Positions 43,549-49,574 of a stretch of DNA of 54,732 bases are shown piece after piece. The DNA comes from Synergistaceae bacterium (GTDB lineage Bacteria > Synergistota > Synergistia > Synergistales > Synergistaceae): NCBI GenBank assembly GCA_030533085.1, contig JAUNJZ010000016.1, positions 1 through 54,732 on the forward strand, given 5' to 3'. Both the position numbers and the translations under genes were made by a program. Every line of letters begins with the position of its first letter. Position 1 is the stretch's first letter. The notes beneath the pieces were generated by a model. That model saw only the letters and a list, made by a program, of their open reading frames with translations, was not told the DNA's origin and made no database searches.

Positions 43549-43577
43549 TTGACAGTAGCCCTAAAAAATTATATTGT
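43549..43577 (+). promoter_or_regulatory. Promoter of the poly-C surface-protein gene
   Basis: TTGACA (43549-43554), exact 17-base spacer, TATTGT (43572-43577). The start codon lies about 90 bases downstream. Confidence 0.65.
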
Positions 43578-43671
43578 ACTTCTGTGGATGACTTTATGCG
43601 CGGGGCGGGCGGCTTTTTTCTCTGCCGCGCCGTAAGGCCGGCCAAATCTAAAATCGTAAGGAGCCATAAAA

Positions 43672-46600
43672 ATGTTCATGGAAAAAGAAATCTGTAATGA
43701 TACTTTGATGAACAACGGTACGCCCCCCCCCCCCTAGGCTGTAATAGGGTTCATTTTGCCTTATTATCGCTCATACTGCTCATTTCGCTATTTGCCTTCG
43801 CCTCTCCGGCGCGGGCGCTGACCCTGAACCCGGATGGCGTTTACGAGCTTGCCACAAGCCAGGACCTCATTGATTTTCGCGACGGTATAAACAGCGAAAA
43901 TATCGCTGCCTCATCTAACGCGAAGCTATCCGCCGATATAGACCTCGGCGGCACGAACTGGACGCCGATCGGCAATGGAGCTGTTCTGTATAACGGAACC
44001 TTCGACGGCGGCGGCCATACAATCAGCAATTACGAAATAACCGCAAACAACCTTACGGTTGTGAATGAACCTGACGTCGACGCCCACTCAGAGCCCCTCT
44101 ACTTTGCCGGCCTCTTTGGCCGGATAGCTGTAAGCGGCGACGTGCGCGGCCTCACAGTCAGCGGCGATATAAATATAACAGGGCTTCAAGTAAGGTACTA
44201 CACCGGCGGCGTCGCCGGGCAGAACCGCGGTACGATATCGAACTGCGTCAACAACGGCGCGCTCTCAGTCAGCCGCAGTCAAGGCAGCGGCAGCTGTAAG
44301 AGCTACGGGGGCGGCGTCGCTGGGTGGAACTGCGAGGGCGGCACGGTATCGAACTGCGAGAACAACGGCTTGGTTCGCGTCTCCGGCGATGTTGGCTGGA
44401 ACACCGCCGGCGGCGTCGTGGGGTATAACAAAGGCACAATAAAGAACAGCGCGAACAGCGGCGCGGTCTTAGCCCCCGGCGGCAGCAGCCGCAGCGAAGG
44501 CGACTACGCCGGCGGCGTTGTGGGTGATAACCACGGTATGATAACGGACTGCGCGAACCGCGGCGCGCTCACAGCCAACGGTTACAATTACAGCTACGCC
44601 GGCGGCGTAGCGGCGGAAAACCACGGCACGATAACAAACAGCGTGAACGGCGGCACGGTCTCGAACAACAATGGCCGTACTAGGAATTACGTTGGCGGCG
44701 TCGCGGGATGGAACCACGTCAACGCCGCGATATCGAACTGCGTGAACAACAGCGATGTCACAGCCGCATACAGAACCGGCTACGCCGGCGGCGTCGTGGG
44801 GTGGAACGGCGCCAATGAAGCTGCTGGGAATACGGCTTCCGACAGCACTACGATAACGAACTGCGTGAACCGCGGCAAAGTCTCCTCAAAATATAGCGCC
44901 GGCGGCATCGCGGGCTCTAACGGCTGCTGTGTCGCTTCAAGCACTGCTGTGATAACAAACTGCATGAACAACGGTGTGGTCGAAGCCTCTGAGAACAACA
45001 AAACCTACGCCGGCGGCGTCGCGGGGTGGAACCAGCCCGACGCCAAGATAACGAACTGCGCGAACAACGGCGCGGTCGCCGCATCCCTCACCGGTGGCGG
45101 CACCAACAGTTACGCTGGAGGCATCGTGGGGTGGAACGGCACCGATCCAGACATGGAAACATCTGACCCATCTGTTTGGGATGCGGTCAACAGCGGCACC
45201 GCTGCGATATCGAACTGCGCGAACAGCGGCGAGGTCACATCACCCGGTTTAGTCGGCGGCGTCGCGGGGTGGAACGGCTACCGTAGCAGTAGAGATCCAA
45301 GCTTTGCTGCGATAACGAACTGCGCGAACAGCGGCGCGCTCTCAGGCAACAACGTCGGCGGCGTCGCTTGGATAAACAAGCGCAACGGCACGATAACGAA
45401 CTGCGGCTGGCTCGCATCCCCCACGGTGACCGCCGGCATCGGCAGCAGCCAGTCCGGCAGCAGCAGCAGCAACGTAGTATCGTTCGACTCAACAGATAAT
45501 ATCGTCACGACAATCCTCCCAGCGAGCCGCGACATCACGGTCAGCCTGAACGGCAGAGCGGACGCCTTCGTCTCCTACCCTGGCACAGCCGCGAACATGG
45601 ACAGCTATTTCGTATCCGGCAGCCCCGTCATTTCCCCCGGCGGGCTGGTCTCTGTCGGCAGCGCGTGGCCCTACAGCCTGACGGCGGGATATACCCCCGG
45701 CGCAGCGACGCTCACCGCGGCCAACGCCGCGATAAAGGCGACTGACTTCTCAACAGTCAGCGGCGGCTCCCCCAGTCCCATAGCAGACGGCTATATTATC
45801 TCCCCTGACCTGAGCTGCGCGGTAACAGTCACAGGCACGCCGGCCGACTCCGTAACGATAAGCGGCGACACAAGCCTCGAAATCGGCCATACATCGACGC
45901 TCACAGCCGTCGTCTCACCGGCCGGCGCGATATACCCGACAGTGACCTGGAGCGTCAGCGGCGACGCGGTAACGCTCTCCGCGACAAGCGGCGGCAGCGT
46001 CACAGTCACCGCCGCCAAACGCGGCAGCGCAGCAATAACCGTGACCGCAGATGGCGGCCTCAGCGCCGACTGCGCCGTAACAGTAAAACAGCCCCTCGAC
46101 AGCGCGGTCATCACAATAGACCCCAGCGCCGACCTCACCTACAGCGGAACGGCAAAACAACCGGCCGTAACGGTGCAGGTAAACAGCAATGACGTAGACC
46201 CCTCCGGCTACACGGTAAGCTACACCAACAACATAAACGCGGGCACAGCCGCGGTAACAATAACAGGCCAGGGTTACTACAGCGGCACGGCAAGTGCGGA
46301 CTTCACCATCCAGAAAAAGAACGTGACGATAAAAGCCAACCCCCAGACCGTCACCTATGGCACACCCATCAGTCAGGGACCGAGCTATGTAACGGCAACC
46401 GGCCTCAACGACGGAGCGAGCGTCACAGACATAACGCTGACCCCGAACAGAACAGATTTCGGAACAGGCATAATAACGCCATCCGCCGCGGTGATAACGG
46501 CAAACGGCGCGAACGTAACCGACAACTACAATATAACCTGGGACACCGGCTCGCTCACAATCTCACCCAAAGTGGTGACGATAACGCCGAATGCTGGACA

Positions 46601-49574
46601 GCACAAAGTCTACGGCGACACAGACCCGACATTCGGCTACACGTCAAGCGAAAGCGGCCTGACGTTCACCGGCGAGCTCTCCCGCGTTTCCGGCGGAGAT
46701 GTAGGAAACTACGCCTACCGCCTCGGCACGCTCAGCGCCGGAAGCAACTACAGCCTGAGGATCGCCTCCGGACAGCATTTTGAAATAACGGCCAAAGCGG
46801 TGACGATAACGGCGAACGCCCAGACTGTCACCTACGGCACGCCCATCAGTCAGGAGACGAACTGCGTAACGGCAAGCGGCCTCAACAGCGGAGCGAGCGT
46901 CACAGCCATAACGCTGAGCCAGGACATAACAGATGTCGGAACAGGCGCAATAACGCCATCCGCCGCGACGATAACGGCAAACGGCGCGAACGTAACAGCC
47001 AACTACAATATAAGCTACATCGACGGGACGCTCATAATCACGGCCAAAGCAGTGACGATAACGCCGAACGCCGGACAGCAAAAAGTCTACGGCGACACAG
47101 AGCCGGCATTCAGCTACACGTCAAGCGAAAGCGGCCTGACATTCACCGGCGGGCTCTCCCGCGCTTCCGGCGAAGATGTAGGAAACTACGACTATAACAT
47201 CGGCACGCTCAGCGCCGGAAACAACTACAGCCTGACGCTAGCCTCCGGACAGCATTTTGAGATAACAGCCAAAGCGGTGACAATAACGGCCAACGACCAG
47301 ACCGTCGCCTACGGCACGCCCATCAGTCAGGGAACGAACAATGTAACGGCAAGCGGCCTCAACAGCGAAGCGAGCGTCACAGCCATAACGCTGACCCAGG
47401 ACAGAACAGATGCCGGAACAGGCTCAATAACGCCATCCGCCGCGGCGATAACGGCAAGCGGCGCGAACGTAACAGCCAACTACGCTATAAGCTACATCAA
47501 CGGAACGCTCACAATCACTCCGACTCCGGCCTCCCCCGACGTGACCGAAAAGGGGCGCACGGACGGAGACAACTCCGGCGTACTTGAAATAGAGGCCAAC
47601 ACAACGGAAGACTTCGCGATATACGACGCGCTGAAGGACATGACCATATCCGGCGACCTGCCGGCAGGCATAAGCGACGCCGCGAAAGCCCTCCAAGCCA
47701 CCAGCGCCGACGTCGACACATCGACCGACATCTATACAAAAGAGCAGATAAGACAGGCCGTCGCCGGCTACTGGGACGTCACGGACAACAGCGAAAAGAA
47801 AATACGCGTAGTAGACGTAAAGAACACGATAGCGACAAGAACGGAAGAAACGCTCTACGCCAAATTCTGGAGAATGCTCGTCAGCACCTTCACCAACAAC
47901 CACGGCGTGAACAGCCTCTCCGACGACGCCTACCTGCCGCTGCAAACCAACTTCACCATCACCAGCGCCGACATAGCCGCCCTGCCTGACGAGCTGAAAA
48001 ACGGACTCTCGGCAGACAACCTCCTTGAGCGCGTAAGCCTCTTCGCCGTAGTATCCGAAGACAGCGGAGTTCACGCCAGAAGCCTGTATGATGCCGTAAG
48101 CGCGGACAAAAACGCCTACATAACAGTAAGCGGAGACAACGACAGCGGCTACAGCGTACATACCCGCGTAATGCTCTTCGACATGCCCGGAGGCGTATCA
48201 GGAGACAAGACGACGGGAGCGAAATGGGTAAAGCCGCTCAAAGTCTCGAACTCGCAGGGACGCGACAACACAAAAGACAACTACTTCATCGTACAGGACG
48301 GAGCAAGCGACGACAGCTACGAGCTCTGCCTCGCCTTCGCCGCGAAAGAGACCAACTACGCGACAGTAAACGTGACAATATCGGGAGATATAACGGCCGA
48401 AAGCGTATACTGGACAATAAGCGGCGACAGCACGATACATAACGGCAATACAAGCGCCGACATAAGAGGCGAAGCGCAAAGCGTCACATTCCACGAAATA
48501 AGCGGCTATACAGTCACGCTAAGCGACGGAACGCGGACGCTCTCCCCCGACGTCATGACAATAAGCAAAGACGTCGAATGGGGCGAAAGCTGGAACATAA
48601 CGGCGGCATACGCGAGAATCGCGGTTGAGGGCGTAACGCTCGACCGCGCCTCCGCCGTGCTTGCCAAAGGAGACACGCTGGCGCTCACAGCGACAGTGAC
48701 CCCCGGCAACGCCTACGACAAAGCGGTAAGCTGGACAAGCGGCAATCCTGAGGTCGCCACAGTGAGCGCCGGCGGCCTTGTGACGGCGACAGGAAGCGGC
48801 AGTACGGCAATCACGGCGGCAGCGGGAGGCCAAAGCGCAAGCTGCACCGTAACGGTACTCAAAACCGTATCCGACGACAGTGAAATAACGGTCATAACGC
48901 CAGCGCCGCTTCTCCCCGCAGTTTCAGGAGAGAATCTGCTGCCGGTGCTGGCGGGTTACGTCAACAGTCAGGAAGAAAGACAAAAAACGCTTGAACAAAG
49001 CGGCTTCCGCTATGACGAACTGGCGACGGACGACAACGGCAATCTCCTCGTTACCGGGGATACTGTCAGAAGAGCCATAGCCGACATTGAGAGCAAATCC
49101 GGAGCGATCTCCCACGACCACGTCACCACGCTGCCGGTAGTAACCTCCTCCGCCGACCAGGCCGGCATGATACACGTCCTCGGCTTTGCAGTAAGCGGAG
49201 ACATATTCGGCGAAATAACAGACGTGAGAGATATCAAAGTGATGAAAATCCTCCCGAACGGCGGCGGCGAGCTATTCACCGTCGCGACCTCGCCGGAAAG
49301 CTTCGCCGACAAACATACGGCGCTCTTCGACGCGGAAGGCGGCATAGTCGCCGGCGCGGTGGATAAGACGGCAAACTACACGCTGACCATATTCATCCTC
49401 GACGGCGGAGAATTTGACCTATCGCCGGAAGCGCGCAAAGTCACCGACCCGATGTCGATACTCCGCGTACAGCCCACCCAGACCTGCAATTCCTCAAACG
49501 GCTGCGCATCAGGCATTGGAGCGATAGCGTTGCTAGCGCTCCTGCCGCTGGCGCTGTGGAGAAGAAAAAAGTAA
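43672..49574 (+). CDS. Very large secreted adhesin-like protein, frame broken at a poly-C tract
   Basis: ATG 43672 has AAGGAG at 43658-43663, eight bases upstream, but its frame ends at TAG just after 12 C residues. Restoring frame (13 or 10 Cs) joins MFMEKEICNDTLMNNGT to a signal peptide (ALLSLILLISLFAFASPARA) and then 1900-odd residues. No usable start exists in the long frame until GTG 44061, beyond the signal peptide. Order: about 12 GLUG-like repeats (GGVAGWN...ITNCANNG), an Ig-like Big2 domain, MBG-type repeats, an acidic middle region, a second Big2 domain (VTLDRASAVLAKGDTLALTA), and a Synergist-CTERM-like end with NGCASG, hydrophobic helix and WRRKK. Probably exported and anchored; likely adhesin, phase variable. 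In this copy it would be OFF. Confidence 0.85.
43723..43734 (+). repeat. Homopolymeric C12 tract inside the start region of the surface protein
   Basis: Twelve consecutive C residues after ACG codon 43720-43722. Slipped-strand changes in such tracts switch genes on and off in many host-associated bacteria. Lengths of 10, 13 or 16 keep the signal peptide and body in frame with ATG 43672. With 12 a TAG follows at once; with 11 a TAA is met two codons later. Confidence 0.9.
46566..47519 (+). repeat. Two tandem 477-bp coding repeats (MBG-type adhesin units)
   Basis: Positions 46566-47042 and 47043-47519 are near-copies offset by exactly 477 bases (159 codons). A partial unit precedes them (46311-46565). 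Each unit has a KVYGDT-containing half and a TVTYGTPISQ-containing half. The nucleotide identity is high enough to allow recombination and copy-number change. Confidence 0.8.

Follow-up and report, generated by a model that had tools for sequence, protein, structure and literature searches.

Poly-C tracts in a repeated leader cassette point to phase variation of a dispersed surface-protein family in Synergistaceae

Most known cases of phase variation through repeats come from Neisseria, Haemophilus, Campylobacter, Helicobacter and a small number of other bacteria. The homopolymeric contingency tracts of Campylobacter, Helicobacter and Neisseria are spread over many unrelated genes. In the Opa system of Neisseria, the product is an outer-membrane beta-barrel. 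Up to 11 dispersed gonococcal opa loci each have their own repeat in the region coding for the leader peptide, and the repeats change by slipped-strand mispairing (PMC3960869). For Campylobacter, Helicobacter and Neisseria, another paper describes G or C homopolymers of at least 7 bases inside the reading frame that lead to ON/OFF switching (PMC4965091). In Synergistetes, DNA inversions have been reported in one of two species (PMC5903667).

We analysed a stretch of 54,732 nucleotides from a Synergistaceae bacterium, here called the window, in which a leader reading frame runs into a poly-C tract in front of a giant surface-protein gene (Table 1). Here 'ON' means that leader and body form one reading frame as assembled, and 'OFF' that they do not. 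An earlier note on the window had reported a start codon with a good ribosome site, a run of 12 C and an immediate TAG, and all of these were found. It had also claimed that one C more or two fewer would fuse the leader to the body, which frame arithmetic confirms, and that the long frame has no start codon before the signal peptide is lost. The body frame is indeed open over 43701-49574, and its first ATG, GTG or TTG is a GTG at 44061, well beyond the signal peptide.

Table 1 Features of the switch locus, in positions of the window
Feature	Position	Strand	Remark
Promoter TTGACA-17-TATTGT	43549..43577	+	10 of 12 consensus bases; kept in 10 of 10 paralogous cassettes
Ribosome-binding site AAGGAG	43658..43663	+	invariant across the ten copies
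Leader ORF (OFF product), MFMEKEICNDTLMNNGTPPPP*	43672..43737	+	ATG at 43672, 21 codons, then TAG at 43735-43737
Poly-C tract, 12 C as assembled	43723..43734	+	directly after GGTACG; 10 or 13 C would join leader and body in one frame
Signal peptide CNRVHFALLSLILLISLFAFASPARA	43740..43817	+	no in-frame start codon of its own
Surface-protein body: GLUG part (predicted beta-helix), MBG_2 repeats, Big_2	43818..49574	+	domain matches; the GLUG part matches 3n6z in fold
Synergist-CTERM sorting signal (TIGR04564)	49491..49571	+	profile match

In the 1,944 codons of the window gene, a signal peptide, GLUG motifs (PF07581), MBG_2, Big_2 and Synergist-CTERM were recognised (Pfam and NCBIfam profiles). 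TIGR04564 scores 27.4 bits and 35.1 bits on the protein with a curated cut-off of 22.5, which confirms the Synergist-CTERM-like anchor that had been proposed earlier at the end of about 1,900 residues of repeats. The MBG part contains 2.5 repeats of a 477-bp unit. We modelled the structure of residues 1 to 640 of the mature protein (mean pLDDT 67, highest over roughly the first 280). The model has many short beta strands, and only one PDB entry, 3n6z (Foldseek E 3.7e-5), matches it below 0.001; this entry is a putative IgA1 protease from Bacteroides. The GLUG part is thereby predicted to fold as a beta-helix. Neither Pfam nor NCBIfam profiles revealed a peptidase domain in the protein. The protein would be displayed on the cell surface and may act in adhesion. 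Downstream of the giant gene, the window also contains two molybdenum/tungsten cofactor riboswitches (RF01055; 49887-50010 and 51016-51171), the second of which precedes a molybdopterin-binding dehydrogenase-like gene.

Counting the C or G runs in the window gives 64 five-base runs, 8 six-base runs, no run of 7-11 bases and one of 12, and about 0.001 C runs of at least 12 would be expected in it from a first-order Markov estimate. C and G run lengths are bimodal, with 7-8 almost absent and lengths of at least 9 present. This distribution, together with the paralogs described below, rules out a chance run. Loss of mismatch repair was rejected as well, because mutS is present in the genome; thus, slippage is not known to be raised. 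A consensus fold of the 5′ UTR that pairs the ribosome site with a segment upstream has a few covarying pairs but a covariation energy of only -0.58, and such a structure is not claimed here.

When the phylum was scanned for a ribosome site, an ATG and poly-C in this order, ten distinct sites were found in this genome, the most of any, and none in the reversed control. Other genomes have fewer sites, and in some of these the poly-C falls within what looks like the signal peptide of another protein. The earlier note had described a single switch. The switch reading held, but its scope was too small, as nine further copies of the whole cassette lie in the same genome (2.63 Mb, 76 contigs). Runs of at least 10 C occur there at 12 places, 8 of which are the window-type leader. 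With two copies in which 9 C are followed by T, the cassettes total ten, and all precede dispersed paralogs. They share the order of TTGACA-17 promoter, ribosome site, ATG, 17 codons, poly-C and signal peptide.

Upstream homology among the copies starts just before the -35 box, with 82-88% over the last 200 columns and only background further upstream. Thus, unrelated places in the genome have received copies of the whole 5′ cassette, each copy with its own promoter. There are additionally a diverged eleventh copy (C37:76633), which is short and OFF with 8 C, and a copy on contig C9 that is truncated by the contig end at the signal peptide. The tract is absent from 13 other Synergist-CTERM proteins encoded in this genome, so that among Synergist-CTERM proteins here the switch is carried only by the GLUG subfamily. 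Most of the more distant GLUG proteins (in this genome, G014, G015, G042 and G046) have an ordinary start and no tract.

The tract is 10 C on contigs C19, C50, C59, C70 and C76, 12 C on C20 (the window), C37 and C49, and 9 C followed by T on C45 and C74. As assembled, 2/10 copies are ON (C37 and C49, both with 12 C) and 8/10 are OFF. The ON phase is 12 (or 9) C followed by ATAAGC. Because the window copy is one base shorter after the tract (TAGGC), 12 C is OFF there. One OFF phase is common to 7/10 copies, which may come from recent duplication or gene conversion rather than from independent slips.

Several other long tracts were observed in this genome. A TonB-dependent receptor gene with a TTG start (L001:5943-7986, contig C13) has 10 C within its signal peptide and is out of frame as assembled, making it a candidate for phase variation. 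A prepilin-like gene (L008:8499-9087, minus strand, contig C52) has a tract of 15 C and, 51 bases before it, a leader ATG, a spacing equal to that of the surface-protein family; this gene is also out of frame as assembled. On contig C24 (L003:6001-6136), 11 C lie just upstream of TTGACG-17-TATAAT, followed by a 622-codon ORF that by eye resembles polysaccharide-biosynthesis (CapD-like) proteins; here the tract might tune transcription. On contig C38 (L005:825-843), 11 G stand at the extreme end of a PAPS-reductase-like ORF and directly 5′ of the ATG of a DNA methyltransferase-like ORF (TSPPYYG motif).

Relatives were searched in 53 genomes of the family, and the same layout was found in three of them, from two other genera. 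The first, a single contig (G015), has tracts of C7, C8, C9, C9, C7, C8 and C7 in seven genes, 2 ON and 5 OFF. The second (G005) has tracts of C11, C7 and C9, all OFF, and the third (G004) has a C7 tract that is ON and a C8 tract that is OFF as read from DNA. One homolog in G005 has 12.8 copies of a 4-base unit where the others have poly-C, and is out of frame. Such swapping of one hypermutable repeat for another at one site would be expected from selection for switching, not from chance. Two more leaders (L243, L233) are without a tract and in frame, and a homolog in Synergistaceae bacterium OttesenSCG-928-D05 is without a tract as well.

In total, 24 loci in four genomes bear a tract. As is characteristic of contingency loci, a simple repeat with a unit that is not a multiple of 3 lies in them between the start codon and the remaining coding frame, poly-C in 23 and the 4-base repeat in one. 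The ON state is found in 5/24, a contrast between loci and not between cells of one strain.

Tracts of other kinds were also seen in the relatives. In G005 and G014 (L212, L219 and L221), an element that is present in several copies per genome ends in GGAG(C/G/A), after which come 9-11 C; there is no long ORF on that strand. In G023 and G024 (L228, L229), a tract of 17 C precedes a probable exported protein (OFF), and a tract of 12 C lies inside a signal peptide (ON); these can be read as switches of the same type acting on exported proteins that are unrelated.

An assembly or sequencing error could account for the 12 C in the window, the gene being simply ON with 13 C in the organism. Homopolymers of at least 10 are error-prone in short-read assemblies, and some of the copies lie at contig edges in this 76-contig genome. 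However, ten copies would have to err differently, while two 12-C copies are in frame and seven share another phase, and mixed phases with the same layout occur in the single-contig genome as well. We therefore regard such an error as unlikely; at this single locus, it would leave the switch standing, and the result for the group is independent of whether the window tract has 12 or 13 C.

The leader could instead be a regulatory upstream ORF, with the body starting at an unusual codon after the tract, as the OFF copies do have a separate short leader ORF. Around the signal peptide, however, no in-frame ATG, GTG or TTG was found in any OFF copy of this genome, and leader and body are one frame in the five ON loci. 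This explanation is hardly credible.

Most OFF copies have an intact body. In seven of the eight, the frame stays open across 580-1,944 codons, one of these (contig C76) being cut by the contig end. Between pairs of OFF copies, 2.2-7.8 stops per pair would be expected from the nucleotide differences without constraint and 0 were observed, the pairs not being independent. The dN/dS between copies is 0.5-1.2, a range that fits diversifying surface proteins. The exception is the copy on contig C19, in which the leader is OFF and an internal G run is at 9 where 8 G reads in frame, a homopolymer slip.

This doubly broken copy, the short diverged copy at C37:76633 and the high dN/dS in some pairs would fit with OFF copies being decaying pseudogenes of a duplicated family and poly-C being a mutational by-product. 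However, the other seven OFF bodies have neither a stop nor a frameshift, the stops expected between them are absent, and promoter, ribosome site and leader are all conserved. The intact OFF bodies rule out pseudogene decay as a general reading, and we consider it very improbable altogether.

Intact OFF bodies are also compatible with programmed ribosomal frameshifting or RNA-polymerase slippage on the C run, which would yield constant low protein from OFF alleles, as a dosage device rather than a heritable switch. Homopolymers can slip in transcription too. On the other hand, the copies would need opposite shifts (one C more in the window and one C fewer in the 10-C copies), and two would need none, which is incompatible with a directed ribosomal frameshift site; in one homolog, moreover, a tetranucleotide repeat takes the place of the tract. 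A directed ribosomal frameshift is thus unlikely because the shifts are opposite, and the dosage account as a whole is improbable, although transcriptional slippage could add leakiness.

The best explanation is that slipped-strand mispairing makes a dispersed multigene family of surface proteins phase-variable in the manner of Opa, and to this reading we give a probability of about 0.9. The contingency switch proposed in the earlier note is supported by ten copies of the same layout in differing phases, by intact OFF bodies, by homologous leaders (C7-C11, both ON and OFF) in two other genera and by the tetranucleotide repeat that one homolog has at this site; the switching itself is what the sequences of paralogs and relatives suggest. 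Each family member would be transcribed from its own promoter and translated from the leader ATG, and the ribosome would meet the poly-C about 17 codons after the ATG, and then the signal peptide. Slipped-strand mispairing in replication would add or remove C's and thereby set the reading frame. In frame, a secreted GLUG/Synergist-CTERM protein would be made; out of frame, a peptide of about 21-23 residues. With ten or more genes flipping independently, a shifting mixture of coats could result. The sequences themselves show the anatomy, the paralogs with their phases, the intact OFF bodies and the recurrence of the layout in other genera, and from these we infer slippage rate, expression, surface display and biological use (as adhesins, antigens or phage receptors).

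In a wider sense, members of the Synergistota probably run an Opa-like combinatorial phase variation, in which one 5′ cassette of promoter, leader, hypermutable repeat and signal peptide has spread before a diversifying GLUG/Synergist-CTERM family. The layout would be kept in at least three genera, with a repeat unit that can be replaced (poly-C, tetranucleotide), and similar tracts would also control a TonB receptor and a pilin as further exported proteins. We hold this generalisation with less assurance than the reading of the family itself.

Mechanisms of this type are familiar; what seems new, judged from the open literature, is the gene family, its size and its occurrence in this phylum. 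The open literature searched, which takes in only a minority of subscription papers, contained no account of phase variation driven by repeats in Synergistota, in line with the earlier note, and no paper on phase variation of GLUG adhesins. If our reading is true, a ten-gene switchable coat also arose in this phylum, whose anaerobic members often live in the gut and have been little studied. It would account for such genes looking broken in assemblies and annotations, and would offer a directly testable model for surface diversity in these organisms.

Like Neisseria Opa, the system is a multigene family with the repeat in the leader-peptide region, here in ten dispersed cassettes. The Opa unit is CTCTT, whereas here it is poly-C, or a 4-base repeat in one homolog, and the product, found in another phylum, is not an Opa protein but combines GLUG, MBG and Big_2 domains with a Synergist-CTERM anchor. 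The homopolymer tracts of Campylobacter, Helicobacter and Neisseria differ in being spread over unrelated genes; here a single leader cassette recurs before one paralogous family. With GLUG-motif proteins, including the N-terminal regions of IgA1 proteases (PDB 3n6z), the window protein shares GLUG repeats (PF07581) and the predicted beta-helix, but the metallopeptidase domain that lies beside GLUG in IgA1 protease was not found in it. Like other Synergist-CTERM (TIGR04564) proteins, it has the C-terminal sorting signal above the curated cut-off, and it differs from the 13 others of its genome in having the tract.
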